From Candidatus Poribacteria bacterium (GTDB lineage Bacteria; Poribacteria; WGA-4E; PCPOR2b), in assembly GCA_022822005.1 (NCBI GenBank), contig JAJECO010000042.1, positions 1 to 64,000 of the forward strand: a stretch of DNA of 64,000 nt, written 5' to 3'. The notes below the pieces were generated by a model. It saw only the letters and a list, made by a program, of their open reading frames with translations, made no database searches and was not told the origin of the DNA. Positions 9,186-47,456 of the stretch are shown here, piece after piece. The translations under genes and the position numbers were made by a program. The first letter of the stretch is position 1; every line of letters starts with the position of its first letter.

Positions 9186-11027
9186 CTACTTGACAATCAC
9201 CATCCGCCTTGTAGCGGTATAATCCCCCGCCCGAAGCTGATAAAAATAGATACCACTTGCCACCAATTCGCCGGTTCCGTTGCGTCCATTCCAGTACGCT
9301 GCACGATTCCGAGCGGTATAGAATCCTGCCGGTTGATACCCCAGATCTAATTGACGCACCATCGCTCCTTTTATGTCATAAATGGTAAGTATCACATCAG
9401 AAGCGTTGGCGAGATGATACGGTATCCACGTCTCTGGATTGAACGGATTCGGATAGTTGGGCAATAGTCCTGTCTCTTTTGGTATCAAAGCAGCGAGGAG
9501 CTGCTCAAGAAAGCGAATTCCCCTTCGCAACCTTAGATTCATAAGATCTAATCCCTGTACTTGAGTGAGCCAACCCCGAACTTCCGCTTCCGTAAGGGAC
9601 CCAAGTGTCACGGGGTGTGCAGGAGGGGCCGCCGCAGCCTCCCCAAGCACCCCGGCAACTGTGACGAGATCCAGAATATTGACTACGCCATCTCCATTGA
9701 TATCGGCATCGTTCTGTCCTATCAAACCAAAGTTTGAACTAACATGTGTCAAATCGTGGAAGTTCACCACACCATCGCGGTTGACATCTCCGAATACCGC
9801 TGTGGGTGTAAGATCCCACAGGAGCACCGTGCCATCCCCACTCCCGGTCGCCAGCATCCGTCCATCCGGGCTGAACGCGACGCTATTGATCCAATCTGTG
9901 TGCCCGATGAAGGTTTGCTTGTACCTTCTCGTCACCCCATCCCAAAGATATACCGCACCATTTTCCTCCCCACTTGCCAGGATCTCCCCATTTGGACTGA
10001 ATGCTACACTCCTCACCCCAGACGTATACCCGGTGATTGCCCCCTTCTGTTCACCCGTTGTGACAGCCCACAACCGAATGGTCCCGTCATTACTCTCACT
10101 TACTAGTGTCTCCCCAGCCGGACTGAAGATAACATTTTCGACCAAACCCAGTTGTCCGATTGTCAACCTGTTTTCACCCGTCACAGCATTCCACACCCGC
10201 ACTGTCCCACCCCAACTCCCACTTGCCAGCGTCTCCCCATTCGGGCTGAATGCTACGCTAGTGACCCTGTCCGTATGTCCGGTGAGAGTTCGTTTGCGTT
10301 CACCTGTCGCGGTCTCCCATAGAAGGATGGTCTTGTCCCCACTCACACTCGCCAACATCTCGCCGTCCGGGCTGAATGCGATACTCCAAATCACAATTGG
10401 ATGCCCGTCTGTCCACTTTTGTTCACCCGTGGCAACATCCCACACTCGCAACATACCGGTCGAATGTCCACATGCCAGTGTTTCTCCATCTGGGCTAAAC
10501 GCAACGCTCTGTACCCGGGATCTGGAATCGGTGAAACTCCATTTTTCTTCACCTGTGGCGACATCCCACAAACGGACGGTCTGATCACCGCTTCCACTCG
10601 CCAGCGTGTGTCCATCCGGACTGAACGCCACACTACCGACAGTCCAACTATGACCAGTGAGGGTTCGCTTGTGTTTACCTGTGGCGACATCCCATAGGCG
10701 GATGGTGTTGTCCTGCCAACCGGCACCGCTAGCGAGCGTCCCTCCATCTGGACTATACGCGATGCTAGTGACCCAAGAGGTATGCCCGGTGAATAGGTCA
10801 ATCTCTTGGAGTGTCGCCGTATCGTAGAACCAAATCCCGATAGAGCTAGCCACCGCGAGGCGAGTTCCGTCCGGAGAATACCGCATCTCAACTATGCTTC
10901 CCCTACCGAGGCGCGCCTTGACATTCTCGGGTAAACGCCATTGCGGGGAATCTTGGGCAAAGCTGTCCTGTAGAAATAGAACAGAAAAGAACAACAAGCT
11001 AAACGTGAAAAACAGTTCCTTTTTCAT
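9186..11027 (-). CDS. Secreted WD40 beta-propeller protein with type I dockerin and C-terminal FlgD-like/sorting domain
   Basis: A 613-residue exported protein. Residues 1-24 are a signal peptide. Residues about 40-405 contain eight or nine WD40 repeats, each with the SPDG/SPNG turn and a LWD-type end. Residues about 410-465 hold two dockerin-type calcium loops (GDVNRDGVVNFHDL and ADINGDGVVNILDL). From about residue 525 there is a C-terminal sandwich with NYPNPFNPETWIPYHLA, IYDIKGAMVR, AYWNGRNGTGELVASG and TATRRMVIVK, which resembles FlgD-Ig/T9SS-type sorting tails and is common in Poribacteria secreted proteins. AAGGAG precedes the start. It ends 65 bp from the convergent cohesin-like gene. 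Likely a surface scaffold or receptor; no enzymatic domain is present. Confidence 0.88.
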   Translation of the reverse strand: MKKELFFTFSLLFFSVLFLQDSFAQDSPQWRLPENVKARLGRGSIVEMRYSPDGTRLAVASSIGIWFYDTATLQEIDLFTGHTSWVTSIAYSPDGGTLASGAGWQDNTIRLWDVATGKHKRTLTGHSWTVGSVAFSPDGHTLASGSGDQTVRLWDVATGEEKWSFTDSRSRVQSVAFSPDGETLACGHSTGMLRVWDVATGEQKWTDGHPIVIWSIAFSPDGEMLASVSGDKTILLWETATGERKRTLTGHTDRVTSVAFSPNGETLASGSWGGTVRVWNAVTGENRLTIGQLGLVENVIFSPAGETLVSESNDGTIRLWAVTTGEQKGAITGYTSGVRSVAFSPNGEILASGEENGAVYLWDGVTRRYKQTFIGHTDWINSVAFSPDGRMLATGSGDGTVLLWDLTPTAVFGDVNRDGVVNFHDLTHVSSNFGLIGQNDADINGDGVVNILDLVTVAGVLGEAAAAPPAHPVTLGSLTEAEVRGWLTQVQGLDLMNLRLRRGIRFLEQLLAALIPKETGLLPNYPNPFNPETWIPYHLANASDVILTIYDIKGAMVRQLDLGYQPAGFYTARNRAAYWNGRNGTGELVASGIYFYQLRAGDYTATRRMVIVK

Positions 11028-14400: not shown

Positions 14401-14501
14401 TCTAAGACGGACTAACTAACGGTATCAAGACGGAACAATCTCAGAACATCTGACCTTAATCCAAACATTCTGCTGATCATATATCGTGTTTGAAGGAAAG
14501 T

Positions 14502-15596
14502 ATGAAAATTACTGAAGTTAAAACCTACAATCTCAGTTATCCCTTAATCGAGCCTTTTGCAAACGCCCGGTCGTGGTCAAAGGCACGGCATGCTGGTATC
14601 GTGGAGATTTACACCGATGCTGGCATTACTGGTTGGGGCGAAGGTACAAGTACGCCATCGCAAGCCGCAATTGATGCATGCCTGATTGGAGAAGATCCGT
14701 TTGATATAGAGGTCATCTGGAATACGATGCACCAACGTGGCGGGAGTAATGCCGCTGCCATAAGTGGAGTAGATATCGCGCTGTGGGACATCGTAGGGAA
14801 AGCGTTGAATCAGCCCATTTATCGCCTCCTCGGTGGTGCGTTCAGGAACCAAATTCCTGCCTATGCCACAGGGCTTTTCAAAAAGGATGTACCCGACATC
14901 ACCCAAGCCTTAATGGACGAGGCAAAAGGTTACGTGGATCAAGGGTTCTCTGCCATGAAAATGAAGATCGGATTTGGGGAAGCCTACGATGTCAAAAATG
15001 TTGCCGCTGTACGCAAAGCAATCGGAGATGAGATTATCCTTGCGGTTGATGCCAATTGCGGATATGATGTTGGAACGGCAATTGACGTTGGGCAGAAAAT
15101 CGCCGAAAATGATCTCTTCTGGTACGAAGAACCTATCACGACAAATGATGTGGAAGGTTATGTCGAAATTCGCAGGGCACTCAATATGCGAATTGCAGGC
15201 GGCGAAGGCTTACAAGGACGGTGGGGATTTCGAGACCTGATCCAAAAGCGTGGATATGACATCGTGCAACCCGATATTAGTATCGCAGGCGGATTCACTG
15301 AATGCCGTAAGGTCGCGGCAATGGCGAGCGCTAACCATCTCCGCGTACTCCCGCACATGTGGGGCAGCAGCATCCGTCTCGCCGCCACATTGCACTGGCA
15401 AGCAACGATCCCAGATGCCCCGCAGGCGTTAAACCCTATCCCTTCGCTGTTTGAGTTCGATATGACAGAAAACCGCTTACGTACCGATCTTGCTAAAGTG
15501 CCGATTCAAGCAGTTGAAGGCTATGTGGCTGTCCCGCAGGAACCGGGACTAGGAATTGAGATTGATCGAACCGTGCTAGAGAAGTATGCTTCGTAG
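14502..15596 (+). CDS. Mandelate racemase/muconate lactonizing-family enzyme (enolase superfamily)
   Basis: 364 residues with a complete set of enolase-superfamily residues. The MKMK motif in SAMKMKIGFG supplies the catalytic Lys. The three metal ligands are the Asp in AVDANCGYD, the Glu in WYEEP and the Glu in GGEGLQG. The Asp in VQPDISIAGG and the His in PHMWGSS complete the second-half His-Asp dyad. The family removes a proton alpha to a carboxylate and either racemises or dehydrates acid sugars. The H-D dyad puts it in the mandelate racemase subgroup, but substrate cannot be deduced. The start at 14502 has GAAGGA five bases upstream; the TTG at 14490 is less likely. It is 11 bp before the DUF547 gene. 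Confidence 0.9.
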   Translation: MKITEVKTYNLSYPLIEPFANARSWSKARHAGIVEIYTDAGITGWGEGTSTPSQAAIDACLIGEDPFDIEVIWNTMHQRGGSNAAAISGVDIALWDIVGKALNQPIYRLLGGAFRNQIPAYATGLFKKDVPDITQALMDEAKGYVDQGFSAMKMKIGFGEAYDVKNVAAVRKAIGDEIILAVDANCGYDVGTAIDVGQKIAENDLFWYEEPITTNDVEGYVEIRRALNMRIAGGEGLQGRWGFRDLIQKRGYDIVQPDISIAGGFTECRKVAAMASANHLRVLPHMWGSSIRLAATLHWQATIPDAPQALNPIPSLFEFDMTENRLRTDLAKVPIQAVEGYVAVPQEPGLGIEIDRTVLEKYAS

Positions 15597-18654: not shown

Positions 18655-19644
18655 TTATGCTGCGGCATTCACCGCTTGGATGAGCGCAATGATATAGCCG
18701 AACTGAAACGCCCACGCCTGTCGCACTCGACCTGAAACCCCCGGAGGCGAGGCATCATCCGGATGATGCGGCGCATGGTCGGGCATCAGCATGTAAGGAT
18801 ACCCAACATCTGCAAGCACTTGTGCCACTTTGTGCATGTCTACATCACCTTCGTCGGGCCAAACCTCCTGAAAGTTGTGTAGCCCACCGCGGATGTTGCG
18901 AAAATGGATATTAAACAGCTTCCTGCGTTCTCCGAAGTATCGCACAATTTCGTACAGTTCTTCGCCGGGATTTTCTAATCCTTCCGAAGCTGTTCCACAA
19001 CAGAAGTTGAATCCATGGCAGGGGCTATCGACTAACTCAACGAAACGTTTCAGTCCTTCAAAAACCGGGTAGTTCCACCGTTCTACGCCCTTCAAAACCG
19101 GTGCCGGGGGATCATTGAGGTGACAAGCCATCTGCACGTTGTTCGCCTCTGCTACAGGGAGGACCCGCTCCAGATAATAGGCAACCCGTTCAAACGCTTC
19201 GTCCCGGCTTACCCGACCCGCTTCGGTCAGCGTTTCATTGTCGAACTTTGACATATCAAAGGTGCTATATGTGGTTCCACCCCGTCCGGGTGTGCTATCC
19301 GTCCGTTGATGCTGAACAATGCAGAAGTTATAGTTTAATCCACGGAGTCCAGCTTTGCCTGCATTTTCAATAGTTTCGCAAACTGTATCGAGGTCTCGGT
19401 CACGTTGTGGGTCTTGAGCAAGGGTGATACTCTGCGGTAAGCCGATATGAATCATCTCAAGGCTAACGCCTTCGGCTGCGGCTTCTTCCTTATGGCGGAG
19501 CAGCGTTTCTGCCTCTGTATTCTCAACGGAGGCATCCATGTGTGTCACGCCGTGTCGGACGAGAAATTCCAGCTCTGGCTTTGATGTCCCTATACCTTGA
19601 ACGCCCACGTGCATTTTTGCTTTTCCTTGTGCCGACTGATTCAT
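18655..19644 (-). CDS. Mannonate dehydratase-like protein (UxuA family)
   Basis: 329 residues of a TIM-barrel protein of the UxuA/xylose-isomerase-like group. The family markers are visible: ACHLNDPP (residues about 172-179), GFNFCCGT (about 217-224), FNIHFRNI (about 246-253), a DVDMHKV segment, and PDHAPHH (about 291-297). These supply the metal-binding Cys, His and Asp residues. UxuA dehydrates D-mannonate to 2-keto-3-deoxygluconate in hexuronate catabolism. The protein is shorter than E. coli UxuA (about 394), so true mannonate specificity is uncertain. AAGGAG lies nine bases upstream of the ATG. It is divergent from the PhyH-Gfo/Idh-enolase cluster, in keeping with a sugar-acid locus. Confidence 0.82.
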   Translation of the reverse strand: MNQSAQGKAKMHVGVQGIGTSKPELEFLVRHGVTHMDASVENTEAETLLRHKEEAAAEGVSLEMIHIGLPQSITLAQDPQRDRDLDTVCETIENAGKAGLRGLNYNFCIVQHQRTDSTPGRGGTTYSTFDMSKFDNETLTEAGRVSRDEAFERVAYYLERVLPVAEANNVQMACHLNDPPAPVLKGVERWNYPVFEGLKRFVELVDSPCHGFNFCCGTASEGLENPGEELYEIVRYFGERRKLFNIHFRNIRGGLHNFQEVWPDEGDVDMHKVAQVLADVGYPYMLMPDHAPHHPDDASPPGVSGRVRQAWAFQFGYIIALIQAVNAAA

Positions 19645-19831
19645 GATTAAGTTCTCCTTTTTTGGAGTGGATAGTTTTGGCAGATTGGTCTATACAATGT
19701 TATTTTATTTTTCTAACGGCTGCTTTGCTATTGGGATACACCCTAATTCCTTATTATGAAAAGATGAATTCTGATCATAAATTAATGGGACATTGTAACT
19801 GAGAAGCACAATTGGCGTCAACATAAAAGGA

Positions 19832-19861
19832 TTGACCCCGATTGTGGGTATGTGGTAGACT
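19832..19861 (+). promoter_or_regulatory. Possible sigma70 promoter of the PhyH-Gfo/Idh cluster
   Basis: TTGACC (19832-19837), an 18-base spacer and TAGACT (19856-19861), about 65 bases upstream of the PhyH start. The -10 is off consensus at two positions. Confidence 0.45.
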
Positions 19862-19924
19862 CCTCTCAGGTATCTTATGAAGGGGATCGCAGGCATTAAT
19901 GCCTACAACGGAGAGGAAAAACGT

Positions 19925-20644
19925 ATGGACGTTGAGCAGTTGAAAGTCGAGCTAGAAGAATACGGCTTTGTCATCATACATAACCTGATTTCCACTGATC
20001 AGGCAGCCCTCATGACAAACCGTTTGATGGAAATCATGCGTCAGCAGCCAGATAAGGATATGCCAAATCAGAACCTGCGTGGCGTGTTCAATTACGATGA
20101 CCAGGATACGTTCATCCCACTCGTTACCCATCCGGTGTACTTGGAGTTGGCAGCGCACATGTTGGGTCCCGGATTCCAGATGGCAGAAGTCGGTGCGCGA
20201 TGGATTAAGCCGGGGGCAGAAGCACAAAATCTTCATGCAGATGTACCAATCGGCTGGTTTCCGCAATCTGGCTTGGCGATACCGGATGCCTGCTTTCTCG
20301 TCAACTGTATCTGGATGTTGACTGATTTTACGTTCGAGAACGGTGCTACACAGGTGATGCCTTTCAGCCATCATTCCCGCCGAACCCCACGATCTGGGGT
20401 GGATTACAACCATCTGGTAACCGCCGAAGGTCCTGCGGGTTCCATTATTATCTTTCACGGAGCTATTTGGCATCGAGGGGGAGCCAACATCACTGCGGAC
20501 AAGCACCGCATGGGTGTATCAAGCGGATTTCACGCCTCATGGATGGATCCAGCAGCCGGAGGGTGGTATCTAATGAAGAGAGGTGTGCGGGACCGGATGC
20601 CGCCAGAGGTCCGAGCAATGAACCGACATGTGGTCGAGCGTTAA
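19925..20644 (+). CDS. Phytanoyl-CoA dioxygenase family protein (PhyH), first copy
   Basis: A 239-residue Fe(II)/2-oxoglutarate-type oxygenase. The HxD metal motif is LHADVP (residues about 98-103), the distal His is in IWHRGGAN, and the Arg of KHRMG is the expected 2-oxoglutarate ligand. N-terminal EEYGFVIIHNLI is the typical PhyH opening. Family members hydroxylate small molecules; none in this window resembles true phytanoyl-CoA hydroxylase closely enough to name a substrate. The start at 19925 has GGAGAGG upstream, chosen over an in-frame ATG at 19877. First gene of a five-gene plus-strand run with Gfo/Idh, an enolase-superfamily enzyme, a second PhyH and an inositol-phosphatase-type gene. 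Confidence 0.88.
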   Translation: MDVEQLKVELEEYGFVIIHNLISTDQAALMTNRLMEIMRQQPDKDMPNQNLRGVFNYDDQDTFIPLVTHPVYLELAAHMLGPGFQMAEVGARWIKPGAEAQNLHADVPIGWFPQSGLAIPDACFLVNCIWMLTDFTFENGATQVMPFSHHSRRTPRSGVDYNHLVTAEGPAGSIIIFHGAIWHRGGANITADKHRMGVSSGFHASWMDPAAGGWYLMKRGVRDRMPPEVRAMNRHVVER

Positions 20645-20712
20645 CACCGATTTGTCTCAACAGCCGAATTCTATCCCAATCTTATCGGGGATGGATTAAC
20701 GAGGAGCGGGTC

Positions 20713-21753
20713 ATGGTAGAGAAGCGAGTATGTTGGGGATTGTTAAGCACCGCCCGAATCAATGAACGATTGATCCCCGCCATCCGTGCTTCGGAGCGAA
20801 GCGAACTCTTGGGTGTGGCAAGTCGTAGTAAGGAACGGGCGCAGGCTTATGCCAAACAGTGGGACATTCCTCACGCCTACGGCACCTATCAGCAGATGCT
20901 CGCTGATCCAGCAATCAACGTGATTTACCTCTCTCTCCCCAATTATCTGCACACTGAGTGGGCGGTCAAGTGTGCGGAAGCAGGAAAACATGTCCTATGC
21001 GAAAAACCGCTTGCCATCACGACCGAAGAGGTCGCGCGGATGGCACAGGTAGCTGAGGGAAATGGGATCATCATACAGGAAGCGGCAATGATGCGTTTCC
21101 ATCCGCAGACCCGATATCTGCGCAAGTTGGTTGCCAACAGAGCTATAGGTGATATCCGTCTGATCCGCGGCGTTTTCGCATTCACACTTGAAAATCCGGG
21201 GGATATCCGACTGGATATGAATATGGGTGGAGGTTCATTGTGGGACTTGGGTAGTTATTGTGTGAGCTTTGCGCGCACAGTGCTACAAGCGGAGCCGGTT
21301 GAGGTCAGTGCGTATCAGGTCTGCGGTGACAGCGGTGTCGATCTCAGTTTCTCAGCACAGATGCAATTTCCCACCGGTACACTTGTTCACTTTTTCTCCA
21401 GCTTCCAATCATTTCCTCATATTGAGGCAGACTTTCTCGGCACTGAAGGAAGGATTTATGCAGATATACCATGGGTTAATCATATTGGTGCTTCGGCCAA
21501 TGTGCAGGTGATGCGCAGCGGCAATGTCGAAGGAATGTCAACCTTCAGCGACAGCATGGAGGGGCGGACGACCGATACGAAGACATATGCGAACATCAAC
21601 GCCTATCAATGCGAGGTAGATTCGATGGTGGAGAATGTTCTGGATGGAACCGAACCGGTAGTTTCGCTGGCAGACAGTTGGAAAAATGTAGCAGCGATAG
21701 TCGCTCTACACGAATCAGCACGGACAGGCAAGCCTGCCAAACCCGCAACGTAG
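20713..21753 (+). CDS. Gfo/Idh/MocA-family oxidoreductase
   Basis: 346 residues. The Rossmann fold begins WGLLSTARINERLI, a variant of the usual GxGxxG loop shared by the dimeric dihydrodiol/glucose-fructose oxidoreductase branch. The family motif AGKHVLCEKPLA (residues about 87-98) carries the conserved Lys that helps bind cofactor and substrate. The second domain holds the dimerisation beta sheet, with GGGSLWDLGSY near residue 175. It oxidises or reduces a sugar or cyclitol with NAD(P). GAGGAG at 20701-20706 fixes the start; the long ORF from 20467 overlaps the PhyH gene and is spurious at its N-terminus. It lies 68 bp after PhyH and 99 bp before a RhamD-like gene. Confidence 0.88.
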   Translation: MVEKRVCWGLLSTARINERLIPAIRASERSELLGVASRSKERAQAYAKQWDIPHAYGTYQQMLADPAINVIYLSLPNYLHTEWAVKCAEAGKHVLCEKPLAITTEEVARMAQVAEGNGIIIQEAAMMRFHPQTRYLRKLVANRAIGDIRLIRGVFAFTLENPGDIRLDMNMGGGSLWDLGSYCVSFARTVLQAEPVEVSAYQVCGDSGVDLSFSAQMQFPTGTLVHFFSSFQSFPHIEADFLGTEGRIYADIPWVNHIGASANVQVMRSGNVEGMSTFSDSMEGRTTDTKTYANINAYQCEVDSMVENVLDGTEPVVSLADSWKNVAAIVALHESARTGKPAKPAT

Positions 21754-21852
21754 AATAACTAATTTACCTAACCTCACTATTGAGATATGTTAGTAGGAAA
21801 CAACGACTATTCTTCCGTACCAGCCCATTGATATGGTGTTTAGAGGTTTCTT

Positions 21853-23016
21853 ATGAAAATTAAAGAAATTCGTGCTGTCAATGTAAACATCCCACACACC
21901 CCGCCAAAAACTAAGCCGCGCCGTCCGACGTGGAATCGAAGTGCGCCACGTGCCCTACCTATCAATAAATATCCAGAGTTTTCCCGATTACCGAGCCAAA
22001 TGCCTGGTATGGGCGGTGGACAGGTATGGGTGCGGATCACTGCCGAAGATGGGACGTGGGGCATGGGAGCGTGCAGTTTTGGTGATTCCGTGGCAGTATT
22101 GATCGATCAAACCTTTGCACCGATGTTGGAAGGTCGAGATTGCCTTGCCACTGAATACCTCAACGATCTAATGTGGCGTTCGATGCAGCGACTTGGTGCG
22201 GCGGGTCATGCTGCGGTGGCGCAGAGCGGCATAGATCTAGCATTATGGGATCTCAAGGGAAAACTGCTGGATTTGCCTGTGTATCGACTGCTTGGCGGAC
22301 CGTGCCGGGATAAAATAAAACTCTATGCTACAGGCGATGATCTCGACTGGAGTATGGAACTTGGTTTCAAGGCTTTCAAAGTCACAAACCCGGCGCATTA
22401 CGAGATGGGCATTGAGGGATTGAATCTGGTCGAGGAGAAACTTGCGATGGCTAGAGAAACGATCGGTTCTAACGCCGAATTAATGCTCAATGCGGTTATG
22501 TCATATAACGTGGAGTTCGCCGTACAAATCGCTGAACGGCTGCGCCCTTTCCGGATGCGATGGCTGGAGGAGCCCTTAATCCCAACAGACCTTGAGGGGC
22601 ACATTGAGTTGAAGAAATCAGTGCCTTGGATGCCAATCGCCACCGGCGAAGACCACCACGGGCGGCAGGCGTTTCGGCAGCTCGTAGAGCACCGGTGCGT
22701 GGATGTCGTACAACCTGACCTTAAGTGGTGTGGCGGACTTTCCGAGGCGATCAAGATATACACCATCGCTGAAGCGGCAGGTATCGTATCAATCCCGCAT
22801 GGCGGTGGGAATACGCCTTTTGGTCAGCATTTCGCCATGGCGCTGCCCGAATCGCCGATGGCAGAATACTGGCTCGGTACAGATCCCGGCATACCGCTTT
22901 CCGAGGTGCGATCTATTCCCGGCATGGCGACACCGATAGAGGGCTGCTTAATTCCTTCAGATGCACCGGGATTTGGCATGGAAATCAAGGAAGAGTGGAT
23001 AGAACCGTGGGGATAA
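21853..23016 (+). CDS. Enolase-superfamily sugar-acid dehydratase, L-rhamnonate dehydratase-like
   Basis: 387 residues. The C-terminal barrel follows L-rhamnonate dehydratase closely: WLEEPLIPTDLEGH, ATGEDHHGRQAFRQL, HRCVDVVQPDL and SIPHGGGNTP. The Glu of LEEP, Glu of TGED, Asp of QPDL and His of PHGGG are all present. The first metal ligand is altered: the family LMLD is LMLN here (before AVMSYNVEFA), an Asp-to-Asn change. Rhamnonate dehydratase converts L-rhamnonate and related aldonates to 2-keto-3-deoxy acids. The Asn may still coordinate weakly, or this may be a different reaction. Start GAGG lies upstream of the ATG. The gene lies in the cluster with Gfo/Idh, which could supply the aldonate. 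Confidence 0.85.
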   Translation: MKIKEIRAVNVNIPHTPPKTKPRRPTWNRSAPRALPINKYPEFSRLPSQMPGMGGGQVWVRITAEDGTWGMGACSFGDSVAVLIDQTFAPMLEGRDCLATEYLNDLMWRSMQRLGAAGHAAVAQSGIDLALWDLKGKLLDLPVYRLLGGPCRDKIKLYATGDDLDWSMELGFKAFKVTNPAHYEMGIEGLNLVEEKLAMARETIGSNAELMLNAVMSYNVEFAVQIAERLRPFRMRWLEEPLIPTDLEGHIELKKSVPWMPIATGEDHHGRQAFRQLVEHRCVDVVQPDLKWCGGLSEAIKIYTIAEAAGIVSIPHGGGNTPFGQHFAMALPESPMAEYWLGTDPGIPLSEVRSIPGMATPIEGCLIPSDAPGFGMEIKEEWIEPWG

Positions 23017-23138
23017 GATCTCGTTGACCACATCGGTCAGCCAACCGACAATCTGTGTAAGAATATCAATTACTCATAATTTGTTTGAAGTTCGTAACAA
23101 ATTACAGCGCGCAGGCCGCAGCAAAAGGAAGGATTGTC

Positions 23139-24362
23139 ATGAAAGTAGATCGTAATCAATTTCTTGAGGACGGGTATGTCGTCCTACGCAATGTCATTCC
23201 AGCAGATGAGTTGGATCCGCTGCGCGCCAGCTATGAAATACTGGTTGAACGACAAAAAGCAATCTGGGCGCGGGAACGTAAACCGGACGATCCACCCGGC
23301 GGCGAGTGGGAGAGGTCCGCTCAGCCACGATTGCTCCTCCACCGAAGTCCACTTGCAGATCTGATAGATGAGGATACCGCCAGCGCGGTGGAGATCTGGC
23401 TTCATGAAAACACGCAAGGTGCCAGCAGTGAACTGTTGGGAGTATCTGATGCCGCGGTTACGGAGATGATGTTGATGTGTAACCCAGTCCAGGATCGAGG
23501 TCCCGCCCATTGGCATCGCGATTTATATCCTCCTTACGGCGCCCCGTTGCAAGGCTATGTGGACGATATTATCGAAGGAGGTCCCAGATACGTGCAGTGG
23601 AATCTCTGCCTCTACGATGATGATGTGTTATGGGTGATACCCGGCAGCCACGCACGTCTCAACACAGATCGAGAAAACGAGTTACTACGAACAAGCCGCC
23701 ATATCCCTTTTCCCAGCGGTGTTCAGACGCACCTTAATGCGGGTGATGGGGTAGCTTACATTCTGCCGATTTTACATTGGGGCAGCAATTATAGCACTAA
23801 AATGCGGCGCACGATTCACGGTGGCTTTTCAACTTTCACCCAGTATGAAAATCAAAGTTACATGAAGTATTTGTCAGCTTCTGCCCAAGTGACATTTGAG
23901 CACTGGATACAGCGCAGTGAGCAGATGATAACACACACCGAGTCAATGCTTCGAGCCGCTATTGAAAAGGATGCCGCTGCCTACCACACTACTCTTGAAA
24001 AACTTCATCCGGGGCGAGGAGAAAAGGGGAAAATGCTCTCGACAGTATACTTGAGCAAGATTGCCAAACGCGTGTATGATTGTAAACATCCCGACTTTGA
24101 TAACCTACCACAGGAAACCCGTGACTCGATGATTCGATCACATCCAATAACGCTTCAGTGGGGCTTACCTCTTGCGAACCGATTCACTTTCGAGGAGGCG
24201 CAAATCTTGTGGAATCGGTTCAAGCCGGTTGATGCCCGCATTCAGTCGGAGGTCGAGGATGCTGCTCCCGGATATGAGAACCGTCCGTCGCGGTATCACT
24301 TCAATGAGATGCCTGTCAATTTTAGTATCGAAGACTTCATCGCTGGTTGGATGCAATCATAG
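23139..24362 (+). CDS. Phytanoyl-CoA dioxygenase-like protein, long form
   Basis: A 407-residue PhyH-type protein, longer than typical members (about 250-300). The N-terminal FLEDGYVVLRNVIPADEL is the family opening. The HxD site is AHWHRDLYPP (residues about 126-135), and the distal segment is LHWGSNYSTKMRRTIHGGF, with His and Arg at the expected spacing. After the oxygenase fold, a C-terminal extension of about 130 residues (from about residue 275) has no obvious motif and may form a lid or dimer interface. AAAGGAAGG precedes the start at 23139. The gene lies 122 bp after the RhamD-like gene and 34 bp before the inositol-phosphatase-type gene. Confidence 0.82.
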   Translation: MKVDRNQFLEDGYVVLRNVIPADELDPLRASYEILVERQKAIWARERKPDDPPGGEWERSAQPRLLLHRSPLADLIDEDTASAVEIWLHENTQGASSELLGVSDAAVTEMMLMCNPVQDRGPAHWHRDLYPPYGAPLQGYVDDIIEGGPRYVQWNLCLYDDDVLWVIPGSHARLNTDRENELLRTSRHIPFPSGVQTHLNAGDGVAYILPILHWGSNYSTKMRRTIHGGFSTFTQYENQSYMKYLSASAQVTFEHWIQRSEQMITHTESMLRAAIEKDAAAYHTTLEKLHPGRGEKGKMLSTVYLSKIAKRVYDCKHPDFDNLPQETRDSMIRSHPITLQWGLPLANRFTFEEAQILWNRFKPVDARIQSEVEDAAPGYENRPSRYHFNEMPVNFSIEDFIAGWMQS

Positions 24363-24396
24363 TAACTACACAAATAGGCAGGCAAAGGAAATCGCG

Positions 24397-25188
24397 TTGC
24401 AGAAAGCCCTTGAAATTGCAATACAGGCTGCCAAAGAGGCAGGCAAAGTAGTGATGGGATATTATCAGCGCAGCTACGATATTCGCGAAAAAAGTGCCAA
24501 CAATCCCGTTACAACCGCCGATCTGATGGCGAATCATCAAATTCAAGAGATCATCTGTCATGCTTTTCCCGACGATGGGTGGCTCTCGGAGGAGACAAAG
24601 GATTCTCCAGATCGGTTGGCAAAATCCCGTGTGTGGGTCATCGATCCCATTGACGGAACCGAGGAGTTCATCGCAGGCATCCCCGAATTTGCGATTTCGA
24701 TTGCCCTCGTGGTTGAGGGAATACCAGTCGTCGGTGTGTTGTACAATCCGGCCACAGCGGAACTTTTTTACGCTGATACCGGTGGTGGTGCGTTTTGTAA
24801 CGGTACACCGATTCACTGTTCCCCATGCCGAGACCTCAAACAAGCATCAATGCTTGTTAGCCAAACGGAACACCAAAAAGGGGTGTTAGCGGGACTAATT
24901 CCACTTGTCGCAGAAATTCAATATATCGGTAGTGTCACTTATAAACTCGCAAGGGTTGCAGCAGGGACAGGCGATCTTTATGTTACCGTGCGCCCCAAAA
25001 ATGAGTGGGATTTCTGTGCCGGCGATCTCATCTTGCGTGAAACTGGCGGCGTTCTGTGGGATAAGGCGGGTAGGACAATAAGGTATAACAAAAAAAGAGT
25101 TGGGCAACCAACGGGGCTATTCGCTGGCAACCCAACTCTTGTAAAACAGATAATCGATTTTTACTCAAGCAAGCCGGTCAATGTTTAA
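24397..25188 (+). CDS. Inositol monophosphatase / CysQ-type phosphatase
   Basis: 263 residues with all Li+-sensitive phosphatase motifs: the Glu pair in WLSEETKD (residues about 64-71), WVIDPIDGTEEF (about 81-92) and WDFCAGDLILRETGG (about 206-220), which together bind two or three Mg ions. The family includes inositol-1-phosphatase, 3'(2'),5'-bisphosphate nucleotidase and histidinol phosphatase. The TEEF after DPIDG is more like CysQ/HisN than inositol monophosphatase (TTNF). The start is TTG at 24397 with AAAGGAA eight bases upstream; the ATG at 24172 lies inside the preceding gene in another frame and is rejected. Cytoplasmic. It ends 116 bp from the convergent sigma-factor gene. Confidence 0.85.
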   Translation: MQKALEIAIQAAKEAGKVVMGYYQRSYDIREKSANNPVTTADLMANHQIQEIICHAFPDDGWLSEETKDSPDRLAKSRVWVIDPIDGTEEFIAGIPEFAISIALVVEGIPVVGVLYNPATAELFYADTGGGAFCNGTPIHCSPCRDLKQASMLVSQTEHQKGVLAGLIPLVAEIQYIGSVTYKLARVAAGTGDLYVTVRPKNEWDFCAGDLILRETGGVLWDKAGRTIRYNKKRVGQPTGLFAGNPTLVKQIIDFYSSKPVNV

Positions 25189-43055: not shown

Positions 43056-43157
43056 GGCGAGTGTCCTGTTGAGATGTGACTTGTTCAAACGGTGATTGAT
43101 CAGTAATAGCGAAATGAGCGCACTTAAATCGGTATGGCGTAAAATGTGAGGTATAAT

Positions 43158-44036
43158 ATGAACGAACGTGAAAAATTCCTCTTCGATCTGCGGGGCTACC
43201 TTCGAGTCGAAAACTTCCTGACTTCCGAAGAAGTCCAAGTGCTCAACAAAGCGGTTGATGCTAACCGTGACAAATACACAGAGGACAGCAAAATGTACGG
43301 GCTTGGTATGGACGGTGAGTACCATCGCCGATCTATGATGGGGATGCTGACATGGGAACAACCTTGGTGCCAACCATTCCGAGATCTCATAGCCCACCAA
43401 AAACTCATTCCTTATCTCAATACCCTTTTTGGTCGTGGCTGGAGAATGGACCATGACCCTTTTTTACTGATCTCTCGGAAGGGCACCGGTGGACACGGCT
43501 TACACGGTGCGACCAGCAGACATTTCGACGGCACACAGTATTATACCTATGCAAATGGCGAGATGCGCGCGGGACTAATTGTCTGTCAATTCCAATTGGC
43601 GGACATCAATCCCGGGGATGGCGGCATAGCTGTTATTCCGGGAAGCCACAAAGCGAACTTTCTTTGTCCTGAGGATATCATGCTTTACGATGCCAACCAA
43701 GAAGTTGTGTATAACGTGGCAAGCAAAGCAGGAGATCTCGTCATCTTCATGGAAGCTACCATTCACGGTGCGTTGCCTTGGAATGCTGATCATGAAAGGC
43801 GTTCTCTGCTCTACCGCTATTGTCCAAAGTCTATGCACACCAGCGGCGGTATTTACCAAACCAGCATGCCTACATGGGTTAGCGAGTTGACAGAAACGCA
43901 GCAGGCAGCGCTTGAACCACCTTATATCTATAACCGGCCTCTTATTGAGGACGACGGAGCCAGCTTGGTACAGCCCGGTCAAGAGCCGGAGCCCCACAGA
44001 CCGCGCGGCAAAGCCGAAATGAATTCTGATAAGTAA
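43158..44036 (+). CDS. Phytanoyl-CoA dioxygenase family protein (PhyH), cassette A
   Basis: 292 residues. The metal site is SRHFDGTQYY (HxD, residues about 122-131), the distal His is in ATIHGALPW, and the Arg pair in ERRSLLYRY is in the 2-oxoglutarate position. GGIAVIPGSHKANF is the usual PhyH strand before the distal half. No signal peptide. The start is the ATG at 43158, with GTGAGG eight bases upstream; an in-frame GTG at 43146 is the alternative. It is 153 bp before a DUF6785-like membrane protein gene, and the same pair recurs at 46470/47457. Substrate unknown. Confidence 0.87.
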   Translation: MNEREKFLFDLRGYLRVENFLTSEEVQVLNKAVDANRDKYTEDSKMYGLGMDGEYHRRSMMGMLTWEQPWCQPFRDLIAHQKLIPYLNTLFGRGWRMDHDPFLLISRKGTGGHGLHGATSRHFDGTQYYTYANGEMRAGLIVCQFQLADINPGDGGIAVIPGSHKANFLCPEDIMLYDANQEVVYNVASKAGDLVIFMEATIHGALPWNADHERRSLLYRYCPKSMHTSGGIYQTSMPTWVSELTETQQAALEPPYIYNRPLIEDDGASLVQPGQEPEPHRPRGKAEMNSDK

Positions 44037-44189
44037 GCACCTAGCGAAAACTTTTACATATCCTGTCTTACCTATCTCTAACTCCTCAGCTTTGAGCGGC
44101 GATGGGGATGTCCAGACCAAAAGGGGCCAAAACGGAATCGAAGAAAAGTGACCATAGCAAAGTCTTGAACGGATCGGAGGAATGACTCT

Positions 44190-46154
44190 ATGAAAGATAC
44201 GATGCCAGCCTCTCCCTCTACGCTTCAACCTTCTCAGTCGCGTATTACCCTGCGCGCCGTGATATTGGGTTGCATCCTTATGCCGATTAATGCCTACTGG
44301 ATCGGAATGGAGGAGATGCTCTGGCACGGATTTCATTTTTCTGCAACCTCTATCCCGATGAATGTCATTTTCATCATTTTCGTGCTGGCACTGTTAAACT
44401 ACATTGCCCAACGTTTCTGGCCGACGTATGCGTTGAGCCAAGCTGAGCTCCTCGTCATCTATGTCATGTTGGCATGTGTTACAGCGGTGGTTGCCCACGA
44501 TAACATGGTTGGTCTCATGGGACCCCTCTGCCACGCTTTCTGGTTTGCCACTCCCGAAAACGAATGGAAACAGATTCTCCAGCCCTACCTCCCTAACTGG
44601 CTTGTCATGGGTAATACAACCGTTGCCCGTCCTTTTTATGAGGGGGGAGCTAATTTCTTCACCGAAGGCTATCTGCGCTACTGGATCGTTCCTATCGTGA
44701 GTTGGACGGTCATCTCCTCCCTGATCTTCGCTCTCGTTGCTTTCGTAAATGTCCTGCTCCGCCGCCAATGGATTGAGCATGAAAAGCTGCCGTATCCAAT
44801 TACCCAACTGCCGCTGGACATGACTGCACCCGGAATGGAGCTTTTCCGGAACCGCGGTATGTGGTTGGGATTCTCGATTGCAGCGGGCATCGAGATTATC
44901 AACGGAATCAACTTCCTTTATCCATCCTTCCCAATGATACCAATTCGCGAGGAGAGCGCGGACATCTCGCGGTGGCTTAACGAGGAACCGTGGGATGCGA
45001 TTGGCCCAACCTTCTTTCACCTGCGCCTATTTTTTATCGGTCTATGTTTTCTTTTGCCGCTGGATGTGAGTTTTTCAACAGCGTTTTTCTACTGGGCCCG
45101 CAAAGCGCAATACATTGGAGGAAAGGCGGCTGGATGGTATACAATTCCTTACTATCCTTTTCAACCGAACCAAGCAATGGGCGCGGCACTAGCGATTGTT
45201 GTGATAGCAGTGTGGGCTGGCAGGCAACATTTTCGCGAGATTGGCAAACGGATCATCGGCATGAACACATCTATCGACGATTCGACGGAACCGATGCGCT
45301 ATCGATCAGCAGCCTTAGGGATTATAATCTGTCTCGTTCTCCTCTATCTAATCTGTAATCAAGCAGGGATGTCTCTGTGGGTATTCGTGCTATTTTTTGG
45401 ATTGTACATGATGATCACAACGTCTGTGACTCGTGTCCGTGCTGAACTTGGACCACCAGCCCACGACATGGCTGGTGTCAATCCACAAACCGCCTTAACT
45501 ACAGTGGTCGGGATACGCCCGTTTGGGCGTGGTAACCTTGTGATGTTCTCGCTTTTCTCGTGGTTTAACAGCCAGAATCGCAGCCAACCTATGCCGCATC
45601 AGCTTGAAGGCTTTAAACTGGCGCAACGCACCGGTATGGATCATCGCAAACTATTGTGGGTGATGATCTTTTCGATTGTGATAGGTGTTTTCTCAGCGTT
45701 TCTGATGTACCTTTATGTCCTGTATACGCATGGGGGTAGCAAGGCAGGGATGATCTTGGGCCCCGGCTGGGGGACTTACAACCGATTGGCCGGCTGGCTA
45801 CAGTTTCCACGACCGACGGATATCTACGGATCAGCAGTCATCGGTCTGTCATTTATATTTACGATCTTTCTTGGAGCCATGCGGCTCAAATTTATCTGGT
45901 GGCCCTTCCACCCGGTCGGCTATGTAATAGGCATCAACGGTGGAACGCTGGATCAATTCTGGCTTGTATTAATCCTCTCCTCAATCGCCAAGTTCGTGAT
46001 ACTCAAATATGGTGGGGCGCGTCTGTATCGACGTGTGTTACCTTTCTTCTTAGGGTTGGTCTTGGGCGATGTGGTGAGTGGCAGCTATTGGGCTATCCTA
46101 GGCGTCATTTTAGAGACACCGATGTATGTTGTGTGGTTCTGGACAGTACAGTGA
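44190..46154 (+). CDS. DUF6784/DUF6785-like polytopic membrane protein, cassette A
   Basis: 654 residues with about 12-14 hydrophobic helices. Motifs shared with the second copy at 47457 include LPYPITQLPLD, LPLDVSFST, PHQLEGFKLA, FIWWPFHPVGYVIG and FFLGLVLGD. The family occurs with carbohydrate- and PhyH-rich loci in Poribacteria and Planctomycetes and may be a transporter, but no substrate is established. GGAGG lies nine bases upstream of the start. It directly follows a PhyH gene. The last 100 residues, facing a conserved FIWWPFHP segment, are the best conserved between the copies. Confidence 0.8.
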   Translation: MKDTMPASPSTLQPSQSRITLRAVILGCILMPINAYWIGMEEMLWHGFHFSATSIPMNVIFIIFVLALLNYIAQRFWPTYALSQAELLVIYVMLACVTAVVAHDNMVGLMGPLCHAFWFATPENEWKQILQPYLPNWLVMGNTTVARPFYEGGANFFTEGYLRYWIVPIVSWTVISSLIFALVAFVNVLLRRQWIEHEKLPYPITQLPLDMTAPGMELFRNRGMWLGFSIAAGIEIINGINFLYPSFPMIPIREESADISRWLNEEPWDAIGPTFFHLRLFFIGLCFLLPLDVSFSTAFFYWARKAQYIGGKAAGWYTIPYYPFQPNQAMGAALAIVVIAVWAGRQHFREIGKRIIGMNTSIDDSTEPMRYRSAALGIIICLVLLYLICNQAGMSLWVFVLFFGLYMMITTSVTRVRAELGPPAHDMAGVNPQTALTTVVGIRPFGRGNLVMFSLFSWFNSQNRSQPMPHQLEGFKLAQRTGMDHRKLLWVMIFSIVIGVFSAFLMYLYVLYTHGGSKAGMILGPGWGTYNRLAGWLQFPRPTDIYGSAVIGLSFIFTIFLGAMRLKFIWWPFHPVGYVIGINGGTLDQFWLVLILSSIAKFVILKYGGARLYRRVLPFFLGLVLGDVVSGSYWAILGVILETPMYVVWFWTVQ

Positions 46155-46469
46155 TGCCAGAGCGTTTGTCTAATCAATAATCCTGCGTTTCCGCACCTTG
46201 TTTACCGTCAAATGGCACGTCACGCAAGCCTCACTGGCTAGTATCGAAACGTATCCAATCAGAAAAAACTTGAACTTACAATCCAATTGGATGTACAATA
46301 TTAAGTTGGAAGCGGATTGGAGTTGTCCTAGAACGACTCAGGCTATTAGATTCTACCCCCTAAGCGTGTATATTTTCGGTCACCTGATTGAGCGTTGATT
46401 GGATAGATTCTTAGCTTGCGAATAGATTCGCAGGTTTTTCTAAGCGCTTTATGCGAAAGGAGTTACACT
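46155..46469. other. Intergenic region between the two PhyH-membrane protein cassettes (315 bp)
   Basis: It holds the promoter-like site at 46270-46299 for the second PhyH gene and otherwise no recognisable gene, RNA or repeat. Confidence 0.45.
46270..46299 (+). promoter_or_regulatory. Possible sigma70 promoter for cassette B
   Basis: TTGAAC (46270-46275), an 18-base spacer and TACAAT (46294-46299), giving a leader of about 165 nt before the PhyH start at 46470. Confidence 0.4.
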
Positions 46470-47330
46470 ATGCTAACTCAGCAACAAATCGACTTCTACC
46501 ATGAAAATGGCTACATCGGTGTTGAAAGTGTGCTTTCAGAGCAAGATATCATCGACCTTCGTCGTGTGACAGATGAATTTGTCGAAAAATCCCGCGAAGT
46601 CACCGAACATACTGACGTTTTTGATCTTGAACCCGGTCATTCAGCAGAAACTCCCCGTGTACGTCGGATCAAGAACCCAGCAGCTCAACACATTGTCTAT
46701 GATCAGGTGCGAACTTACGCATCCATTATCGACATCGTTGAGCAGTTAGTTGGACCCGGCGTTCGCTCTATGGGCAGCAAACTGAATATGAAATATCCCG
46801 ACTTCGGTAGCCCTGTTGAATGGCATCAGGATTGGGCGTTCTACCCCCATACGAACGATGACGTGTTGGCAGTTGGTGTTGCCATTGACGATATGTCGAT
46901 CGAAAATGGTGCGCTAATGGTCATTCCCGGCTCCCATAAGGGACCAATCTATGATCATCACCAGGATGGTCGTTTCGCCGGTGCAATCACTGACCCTAAT
47001 TTTACACCGGATGGTGCTGTTCCCATTGAAGTTAAAGCTGGCGGCATCTCGATTCATCATGTCCGCACCCTCCACGGGTCTACGCCCAACAACTCTAGCA
47101 CGCCGCGCCGTTTACTGCTCGCCGCTTACACCGCTGTCGATGCCTGGCCCTTGGGCGGCGGCGACTGGGATGCTTTAAGTGCGGGGGTCCTACGCGGCGA
47201 ACTCACGAATCAGGTGCGTATGATTGATGCTCCGGTTCGCATGGCACTCCCCCGTGCGGAGCGTGGTGGTTCGATTTACGAAACTCAGACTATTCTGAAA
47301 AAACCAATCTACGGTCAGAAAACCGAGTAA
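46470..47330 (+). CDS. Phytanoyl-CoA dioxygenase family protein (PhyH), cassette B
   Basis: 286 residues. HxD is in EWHQDWAFYP (residues about 112-121), the distal His is in VRTLHGSTP and the Arg is in PRRLLLAAY. MVIPGSHKGP is the conserved PhyH turn. The N-terminal QQQIDFYHENGYIGVE is the common opening of the family. Compared with cassette A, the N-terminus and C-terminus differ strongly, so the two PhyH proteins are distant paralogues. The start at 46470 has AAAGGAG eight bases upstream; the frame is also open from 46416. It is 126 bp before a DUF6785-like gene. Confidence 0.88.
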   Translation: MLTQQQIDFYHENGYIGVESVLSEQDIIDLRRVTDEFVEKSREVTEHTDVFDLEPGHSAETPRVRRIKNPAAQHIVYDQVRTYASIIDIVEQLVGPGVRSMGSKLNMKYPDFGSPVEWHQDWAFYPHTNDDVLAVGVAIDDMSIENGALMVIPGSHKGPIYDHHQDGRFAGAITDPNFTPDGAVPIEVKAGGISIHHVRTLHGSTPNNSSTPRRLLLAAYTAVDAWPLGGGDWDALSAGVLRGELTNQVRMIDAPVRMALPRAERGGSIYETQTILKKPIYGQKTE

Positions 47331-47456
47331 CTCTCCAGTTTGTGTGAAAGAGTGATGGGTGACAAATGAGTCACTCGTCACTCCTCATCTCTCACAGGGC
47401 ACGTTTGATGTAGCTGCTGTCACAGTATACCCCAAATATCTAGTGATAGCACAACC

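Follow-up and report, generated by a model that had tools for sequence, protein, structure and literature searches.

The locus

Six enzyme reading frames, all open, lie at 18655-25188 of the 64,000 nt window (the whole stretch of DNA that was analysed). The host is a sponge-associated Candidatus Poribacteria bacterium. The genes, a promoter-like site and two codons that bear on the RHAMD metal site are as follows.

18655..19644, minus strand: UXUA, UxuA/AP_endonuc_2 protein, TIM barrel, 329 aa (PF03786, 135 bits; PF01261, 43.7 bits)
19832..19861, plus strand: promoter-like site upstream of PHYH1, TTGACC, 18 nt, TAGACT (consensus scan)
19925..20644, plus strand: PHYH1, PhyH-type Fe(II)/2-oxoglutarate oxygenase (PF05721, 73 bits)
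20713..21753, plus strand: GFO, Gfo/Idh/MocA dehydrogenase (PF01408, 85.7 bits)
21853..23016, plus strand: RHAMD, MR_MLE protein closest to L-rhamnonate dehydratase (PF13378, 155 bits)
22489..22491, plus strand: N213 codon, Asn replacing the first metal-ligand Asp
22651..22653, plus strand: D267 codon, Asp replacing the His beside the third metal ligand, E266
23139..24362, plus strand: PHYH2, long (407 aa) divergent PhyH-type oxygenase (PF05721, 32.1 bits, residues 9-186)
24397..25188, plus strand: IMP, inositol-monophosphatase family, TTG start (PF00459, 209 bits)

The chosen starts differ from those of the longest ORFs, and the longest Gfo/Idh and phosphatase ORFs run into their upstream neighbours. 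For PHYH1, 19925 was preferred to 19877 because it is preceded by the ribosome-site-like GGAGAGGA, and because congener matches to the longer ORF begin at its residues 8-12, close to codon 17. All six genes are under purifying selection, with dN/dS of 0.03-0.20 relative to five congeners (for PHYH2 of congener G020, calculated over residues 188-407 only).

The gaps between PHYH1, GFO, RHAMD, PHYH2 and IMP are 68, 99, 122 and 34 bp. A promoter-like block is kept in all six genomes of the genus and the rest of the intergenic region is variable; the second element is TACACT in four congeners and TAGACT in the window. The whole consensus scan returned 16 promoter-like sites, compared with a mean of 10.9 (sd 3.4) in shuffles. 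As the site preceding the plus-strand genes is kept in six of six genomes, it is plausible that these five genes form an operon, with UXUA divergent, and they would then be co-regulated.

Family assignments

The enzyme families are those named in the first-pass annotation, and several of them are sugar-acid enzyme families. UXUA scores 135 bits against the Pfam UxuA cut-off of 23.7, and 70.2 bits against the equivalog TIGR00695, for which 199.55 are needed. Compared with UxuA mannonate dehydratases (PDB 1tz9, 3ban and 4eac), it is shorter and falls far under their equivalog cut-offs. Four residues aligned to 1tz9 are kept, His175, Cys215, His247 and Asp289, which we take to be metal ligands. 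UXUA is a candidate sugar-acid dehydratase or isomerase, UxuA-type or xylose-isomerase-like. A literature search of a limited collection found nothing to the point on a poribacterial mannonate dehydratase.

Among PDB matches, GFO is nearest to the dihydrodiol dehydrogenase and glucose-fructose oxidoreductase types, and it contains the motifs EKP (97-99) and DLGSY (178-182). It is below the NCBIfam equivalogs for D-xylose 1-dehydrogenase (122 of 350 bits) and inositol 2-dehydrogenase (95.8 of 355 bits). By its sequence, IMP is a CysQ/HisN-like phosphatase of the inositol-monophosphatase family (PF00459), and it is below every NCBIfam subtype equivalog (CysQ, 163.5 of 228.8 bits; HisN, 162.5 of 275.15; IMPase, 127.2 of 332).

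Both oxygenases exceed the PF05721 cut-off of 22 bits and have the HxD...H motif, formed by H104-x-D106 and the distal H183 in PHYH1, and by H126-x-D128 and H213 in PHYH2, where all 12 sequences aligned share them. A PDB search with the PHYH2 sequence gave no match at E 0.1, and its predicted model, built from three sequences, is poor (pLDDT 41.7). Relatives of PHYH2 (E 1e-30) are present in 60 of the 84 genomes of the phylum. The PHYH2 of G020 lacks about residues 10-187, including HxD, and the neighbouring genes are intact. The G020 genome is a MAG, so misassembly of this gene is possible. According to a passage of PMC3909097, no domain family is more abundant in Poribacteria than PhyH; PHYH1 and PHYH2 are both members of the expansion reported there, though PHYH2 is long and divergent.

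Conservation within and outside the genus

All six genomes of the genus have the six genes in the same order, which may point to a real pathway. However, the flanking genes, which are unrelated (sigma factor, ABC transporter, cytochrome and DUF547), are equally collinear there, and the six-gene cluster was not found in any neighbourhood fetched outside the genus. Joint conservation, which the first-pass annotation had named as a check on its pathway, is thus confined to one genus in which unrelated neighbours are conserved as well.

Orthologues in the other genera of the phylum are mostly dispersed, with partial exceptions. Genomes G013 and G014 have a PHYH1 relative (51 %) and a PHYH2 relative (42 %) approximately 2.4 kb apart, and in G024 and G025 relatives of UXUA and PHYH2 are approximately 2-3 kb apart, which amounts to some linkage beyond the genus. 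Close orthologues of GFO were found only within the genus (best 25 candidates scored per genome).

At 77 RHAMD loci outside the genus, no relative of PHYH2 or of the phosphatase was found at E < 1e-5 in flanks of up to 8 kb (at 47 of the 77, 5 kb or more on both sides). PhyH-type genes are near RHAMD at nine of these loci; all nine were inspected and set aside as weak, the genes being on the opposite strand or >3 kb distant. Neighbour families over 80 loci include no partner common to the phyla, and nine Chloroflexi belonging to one clade have a UxuA-family gene immediately upstream of RHAMD. Twelve genomes bearing RHAMD relatives were searched for GFO, giving matches of 29-40 % identity only, bar one 120-residue fragment at 50 %, and for PHYH2, which has relatives in nine. 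PHYH2 relatives of 55-61 % are approximately 0.5-1.6 Mb from RHAMD in three single-chromosome records compared by eye, and one of 38 % is approximately 80 kb away in G086. Relatives of the cluster genes elsewhere mostly live apart.

Orthologues of RHAMD (≥67 %) were found in 8 of 84 phylum genomes; some match is present in 80 of the 84, those beyond the eight being paralogues of ≤49 %. Because the orthologues are restricted to eight genomes and sit at two separate places in the tree, RHAMD was probably acquired horizontally.

Family abundance and the case for a pathway

The 6.0 Mb genome that contains the locus has at least 150 PhyH, at least 97 enolase-type (MR_MLE) and at least 150 Gfo/Idh genes. 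Co-occurrence was assessed using the best 150 of 248 PhyH candidates, among which the cluster's own PHYH2 is absent, the best 150 of 177 Gfo/Idh candidates and 97 of 100 MR_MLE rows (the three omitted are second halves of split genes), with the ends of most contigs approximated by the last match. A PhyH and a Gfo/Idh gene both lie within 5 kb of 8 of the 97 enolase-type genes, compared with a random mean of 6.4, and co-occurrence of the three families is about at chance level. Among the 150 PhyH genes listed, 53 have a second one within 5 kb; the random sets averaged 37.9 and reached at most 58. Given this density, two PhyH genes in 6.5 kb are unremarkable, and what had been put forward as an uncommon pathway looks ordinary against these base rates.

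The reading we prefer, to which we give an even chance, is of a genus-specific, operon-like unit made up of members of expanded families, most likely serving to break down, by a non-phosphorylative route, sugars or sugar acids supplied by the sponge or by dissolved organic matter, with RHAMD probably still a dehydratase. In such a scheme, GFO would oxidise a sugar, RHAMD and UXUA would each dehydrate sugar acids, and the PhyH enzymes may trim compounds at hydroxyl or O-methyl positions, either alongside these steps or on different substrates.

The abundance of these families and the dispersal of the orthologues in other genera would also be expected if the genes were chance neighbours, each with an independent single-enzyme function and no shared regulation. 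We consider this doubtful, as the plus-strand genes share one strand, short gaps and a single promoter-like block that is kept in six species. A dedicated pathway, in which one or both PhyH enzymes hydroxylate or demethylate a sugar acid or cyclitol before oxidation by GFO and dehydration by RHAMD or UXUA, is unlikely. It would account for the operon-like spacing, the conserved promoter-like block and gene order, and the retention of HxD...H in both oxygenases, and part of PMC12709175 reports that PhyH relatives, one of them poribacterial, demethylate 2'-O-methyl nucleosides. Against this oxygenase-before-dehydration order, as proposed in the first-pass annotation, stand the equally collinear flanks, the restriction of the cluster to one genus among the neighbourhoods fetched, the chance-level co-occurrence and the G020 PHYH2 without HxD (with the caveat of misassembly noted above). 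The operon-like unit drawn from expanded families remains our preferred reading, and RHAMD, not a pathway, is the main find of the locus.

The RHAMD metal site

The predicted model of RHAMD (pLDDT 94.4) has the whole-chain fold of L-rhamnonate dehydratase (RhmD). Its best eight structure matches are all RhmD, with VIA-align Z of 47.4-48.6, rmsd of 2.1-2.3 and 30-33 % aligned identity; VIA-align covers only chains ranked high by Foldseek, and absences from it carry no conclusion. RHAMD is below the NCBIfam RhmD equivalog NF011968 (233.7 bits, cut-off 393). In place of Asp-Glu-Glu, which we take to be the RhmD metal ligands, it has N213-E239-E266; H316 and D289, presumably the catalytic His-Asp pair, are present. 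RHAMD resembles RhmD (PDB 2oz3, 3fxg, 2i5q and 3d46) in its whole fold, in the metal ligands at the second and third positions and in the H-D dyad; it differs in its Asn at the first-ligand position and in an Asp where RhmD has the His next to the third ligand. A further contrast is that no other rhamnose-pathway gene was recognised among the six cluster genes.

The Asp-to-Asn change noted in the first-pass annotation is real. N213 aligns to the Asp of structure-known L-rhamnonate dehydratases (in two alignments, then in five) and is present in all eight proteins of the phylum orthologue set, window included, and in 81 of 81 proteins when the window protein is taken with the best 80 of 318 confirmed relatives. 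Being common to 8 of 8 orthologues and to the best 80 of the 318 relatives, it is not a sequencing error. These relatives span six phyla (Poribacteria, Latescibacterota, Gemmatimonadota, Chloroflexota/SAR202, Thermomicrobiota and Pseudomonadota). Position 267 is Asp in 78 of the same 81 proteins and His in five solved rhamnonate dehydratases. Over 38 paralogue rows, 15 of which entered the alignment and tree, residue 213 is Asp (36) or Glu (2), and residue 267 is His (29), Gly (5), Ser (2) or Arg (2). In the sequences compared N213 is coupled to D267, and the swap, which probably had a single origin, suggests a rewired metal site. Asp at 267 is not strictly required, as 10 of 88 N213 proteins have His there.

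Replacement of the first ligand could mark lost Mg2+ binding in a catalytically dead protein or one with a non-metal role, and one of the 81 proteins, L172 from Candidatus Lucifugimonas marina, has an in-frame stop at codon 266 (in the first copy of a tandem pair of N213-type genes), but this is very improbable for RHAMD given its strong purifying selection (dN/dS 0.03-0.09), the retention of the four other tested residues in 78 to 81 of the 81 proteins (H316 in 81; D289 in 78, with Glu in the other three), the coupling of N213 to Asp at 267, and the finding that, of 48 distinct enolase-type genes covered among about 97 in the same genome, 11 have Glu (9) or Gly (2) at the first-ligand position, which indicates that this position tolerates change. 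RHAMD is instead predicted to be, probably, still an enolase-superfamily dehydratase, in which Mg2+ would be bound by N213, E239 and E266, the H316-D289 pair would abstract the alpha proton, and D267 would restore the carboxylate lost at 213.

Implications for enolase-superfamily paralogues

N213-type relatives are found among the enolase-superfamily paralogues of SAR202 and related Chloroflexota (PMC6946804, PMC10444878), which differ from the poribacterial locus in that no shared neighbourhood was found. The passages of these two papers that deal with the paralogues do not mention the Asn/Asp type, and one passage of PMC10444878 reports that rhamnonate and fuconate raise SAR202 growth. The literature search, in its limited collection, returned nothing to the point on an Asn ligand. 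We tentatively propose, with somewhat less than even confidence, that proteins of the N213/D267 type form a branch of the enolase superfamily that is isofunctional, undescribed and spread over six phyla. In it, one metal-site carboxylate would have shifted from the end of strand 2 to beside the third ligand, and its members would catalyse a dehydration or epimerisation foreign to L-rhamnonate dehydratase.

The coupled Asp-to-Asn and His-to-Asp changes are a natural experiment, across phyla, on the tolerance of the enolase-superfamily metal site. The N213/D267 type also marks a testable subgroup among the numerous unassigned SAR202 and sponge-symbiont paralogues, and bears on the question of which substrates these use in dissolved organic matter.

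Gene content of the cluster

All six reading frames of the cluster at 18655-25188 are open and real, and the genes named in the first-pass annotation are all present, belonging to the following Pfam families.

18655-19644, minus strand: UXUA, UxuA/xylose-isomerase-like TIM barrel
19925-20644, plus strand: PHYH1, PhyH
20713-21753, plus strand: GFO, Gfo/Idh/MocA
21853-23016, plus strand: RHAMD, MR_MLE enolase superfamily
23139-24362, plus strand: PHYH2, PhyH
24397-25188, plus strand: IMP, inositol monophosphatase family

None of the six reached an NCBIfam equivalog cut-off, which leaves the specific labels mannonate dehydratase, rhamnonate dehydratase and inositol phosphatase unjustified. The HxD...H motif is intact in both PHYH1 and PHYH2, and UXUA keeps all four residues aligned with the metal site in mannonate dehydratase 1tz9. 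Some features point to an operon. The plus-strand genes are separated by 68, 99, 122 and 34 bp. Upstream of PHYH1, a TTGACC...TAGACT/TACACT block lies in the best-conserved stretch of the divergent intergenic region (6/6 congeners), much of the remainder of which is variable; the promoter consensus scan taken alone is weak (16 sites versus 10.9 in shuffles, sd 3.4).

Two further features of the window were recorded. A second enolase-superfamily gene (14490-15596), approximately 6 kb upstream of RHAMD and kept in the genus, is arabinonate/galactonate-dehydratase-like, below cut-offs, and has the normal Asp ligand. At 43146-49448 there are two tandem units (43146-46154 and 46416-49448), each made up of a PhyH gene and, after it, a gene for a DUF6785/DUF6784 protein; the pair may be a two-gene module.

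Conservation within and beyond the genus

The order UXUA-PHYH1-GFO-RHAMD-PHYH2-IMP is maintained in all five other genomes of the genus, and dN/dS values of 0.03-0.20 across the six genes indicate purifying selection, strongest for RHAMD, UXUA and PHYH1. Collinearity also extends to unrelated flanking genes, among them DUF547, a cytochrome, the sigma factor and an ABC transporter. PHYH2 of one congener (G020) lacks approximately residues 10-187, including HxD (locus L056, about 10290-10500), with intact neighbours; the reading frame, judged from the bases, changes, and the gap may be a misassembly, the genome being a MAG. Two congeners, G018 and G019, have UXUA in two tandem copies (L057 5708-7936; L058 12803-15048).

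The search for each of the six genes covered 84 genomes of the phylum. At 67 % identity or more, RHAMD has orthologues in 8/84, outside the genus only in G013 and G014, and most of the remainder contain nothing closer than paralogues at or below 49 %. In G013, the neighbours of RHAMD include amidohydrolase and EamA transporter genes; the G014 locus has identical gene lengths. Outside the genus, scoring the 25 best candidates of each genome gave no GFO match better than 39 % at E 1e-50. IMP gave four matches there (59-72 %), and PHYH1 gave an 83 % match in G017, adjoining a TIM-barrel gene; in G013 and G014 its relatives are at 51-53 %. Relatives of UXUA (68-85 %, several near sulfatase-like and laminin-G-like genes) and PHYH2 (about 60 %) are widespread. 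Conservation of the genes together extends through the genus, where the flanks are conserved too, but the cluster was not found in the loci examined beyond it. The exceptions in linkage are as follows: in G024 and G025, approximately 2-3 kb separate relatives of UXUA and PHYH2, and in G013 and G014 the distance between a PHYH2 relative (42 %) and a PHYH1 relative (51 %) is approximately 2.4 kb.

Among 77 RHAMD loci outside the genus (E below 1e-5; flanks up to 8 kb, both at least 5 kb in 47/77), PHYH1-type genes were found in 9/77, GFO-type in 16/77 and UXUA-type in 9/77; relatives of PHYH2 and IMP were found in 0/77. In all nine UXUA-type loci, RHAMD is preceded by a UxuA-family gene; these loci come from a single Chloroflexi clade and make one independent case of this link.

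Background frequency of the gene combination

In this 6.0 Mb genome, the best 150 of 248 PhyH candidates (150/150 listed as matches), the best 150 of 177 Gfo/Idh candidates and 97 MR_MLE genes (100 before split genes were joined) were compared with 200 random placements of the same numbers. Eight MR_MLE genes have both PhyH and Gfo/Idh within 5 kb, versus a random mean of 6.4 (largest 14), and 53/150 PhyH genes (best 150 of 248) have another PhyH within 5 kb, versus 37.9 (largest 58). In Poribacteria, PhyH is the domain family of highest abundance (PMC3909097). PhyH beside sugar-acid-type enzymes is therefore expected background here. The proposed pathway, with a PhyH oxygenase step before acid-sugar dehydration, is possible but unlikely; its novelty rested on this ordinary combination and no conservation of the gene set was found beyond the genus.

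The RHAMD metal site and its history

The RHAMD structure model (pLDDT 94.4) matches L-rhamnonate dehydratases (RhmD) with Z 47.4-48.6 and rmsd 2.1-2.3. The first metal-ligand Asp is replaced by N213, and E239, E266, D289 and H316 are retained. Scanning the genome_contigs collection yielded 318 confirmed relatives. The reported Asp-to-Asn change holds in 81/81 sequences (best 80 of 318 plus the window); the two peptide patterns of the scan do not cover residue 213, but selecting the 80 closest sequences may bias the set towards the N213 type. In the same set, E239 and H316 are each found in 81/81, D289 in 78/81 (Glu in 3) and E266 in 80/81; the exception, the first tandem copy in Candidatus Lucifugimonas marina JH1073 (CP046147.1; L172 8001-9161), has an in-frame stop at this third-ligand Glu. 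Residue 267 is Asp in 78/81; the five RhmD sequences of solved structure that were compared have His here, as do 29/38 phylum paralogues. SAR202 and related Chloroflexi (L160, L166, L169-L172, L174) have tandem N213-type pairs in which residue 267 is Asp in the first copy and His in the second. Adding seven tandem copies gives 88 N213 proteins, 78 with Asp and 10 with His at 267. Among 48 distinct enolase-type genes in the own genome, 36 have Asp as the first ligand, 9 have Glu, 2 have Gly (L193, L194; G000:C95:129000-131000 and G000:C2:23400-25400) and only RHAMD has Asn; hence this position is variable, and Asn is rare.

In a maximum-likelihood tree including 15 aligned paralogues (midpoint root for drawing only), all 14 Asp/His sequences fall on one side of one branch (support 94/97), requiring one change, and His at 267 inside the Asn branch requires two. 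The simplest reading is one origin of a coupled N213/D267 swap with two later reversions at 267. The RHAMD sequences of this genus cluster with those of Latescibacterota and Gemmatimonadota, and those of G013 and G014 lie apart, sister to SAR202-type tandem copies. These two placements, together with the presence in so few genomes of the phylum, point to separate acquisitions, and this also speaks against a long-standing shared pathway with the neighbouring PhyH genes.

Possible function

PMC10444878 describes 80 enolase-superfamily genes in the genomes of cultured SAR202, with growth raised by rhamnonate and fuconate; this fits a sugar-acid dehydratase role but does not identify RHAMD. For PhyH, O-demethylation is a fair guess, no more, because a poribacterial relative complemented a 2'-O-methylcytidine demethylation screen, according to PMC12709175. 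What merits a specialist's attention here is the Asn/Asp group among the rhamnonate-dehydratase-like enzymes.
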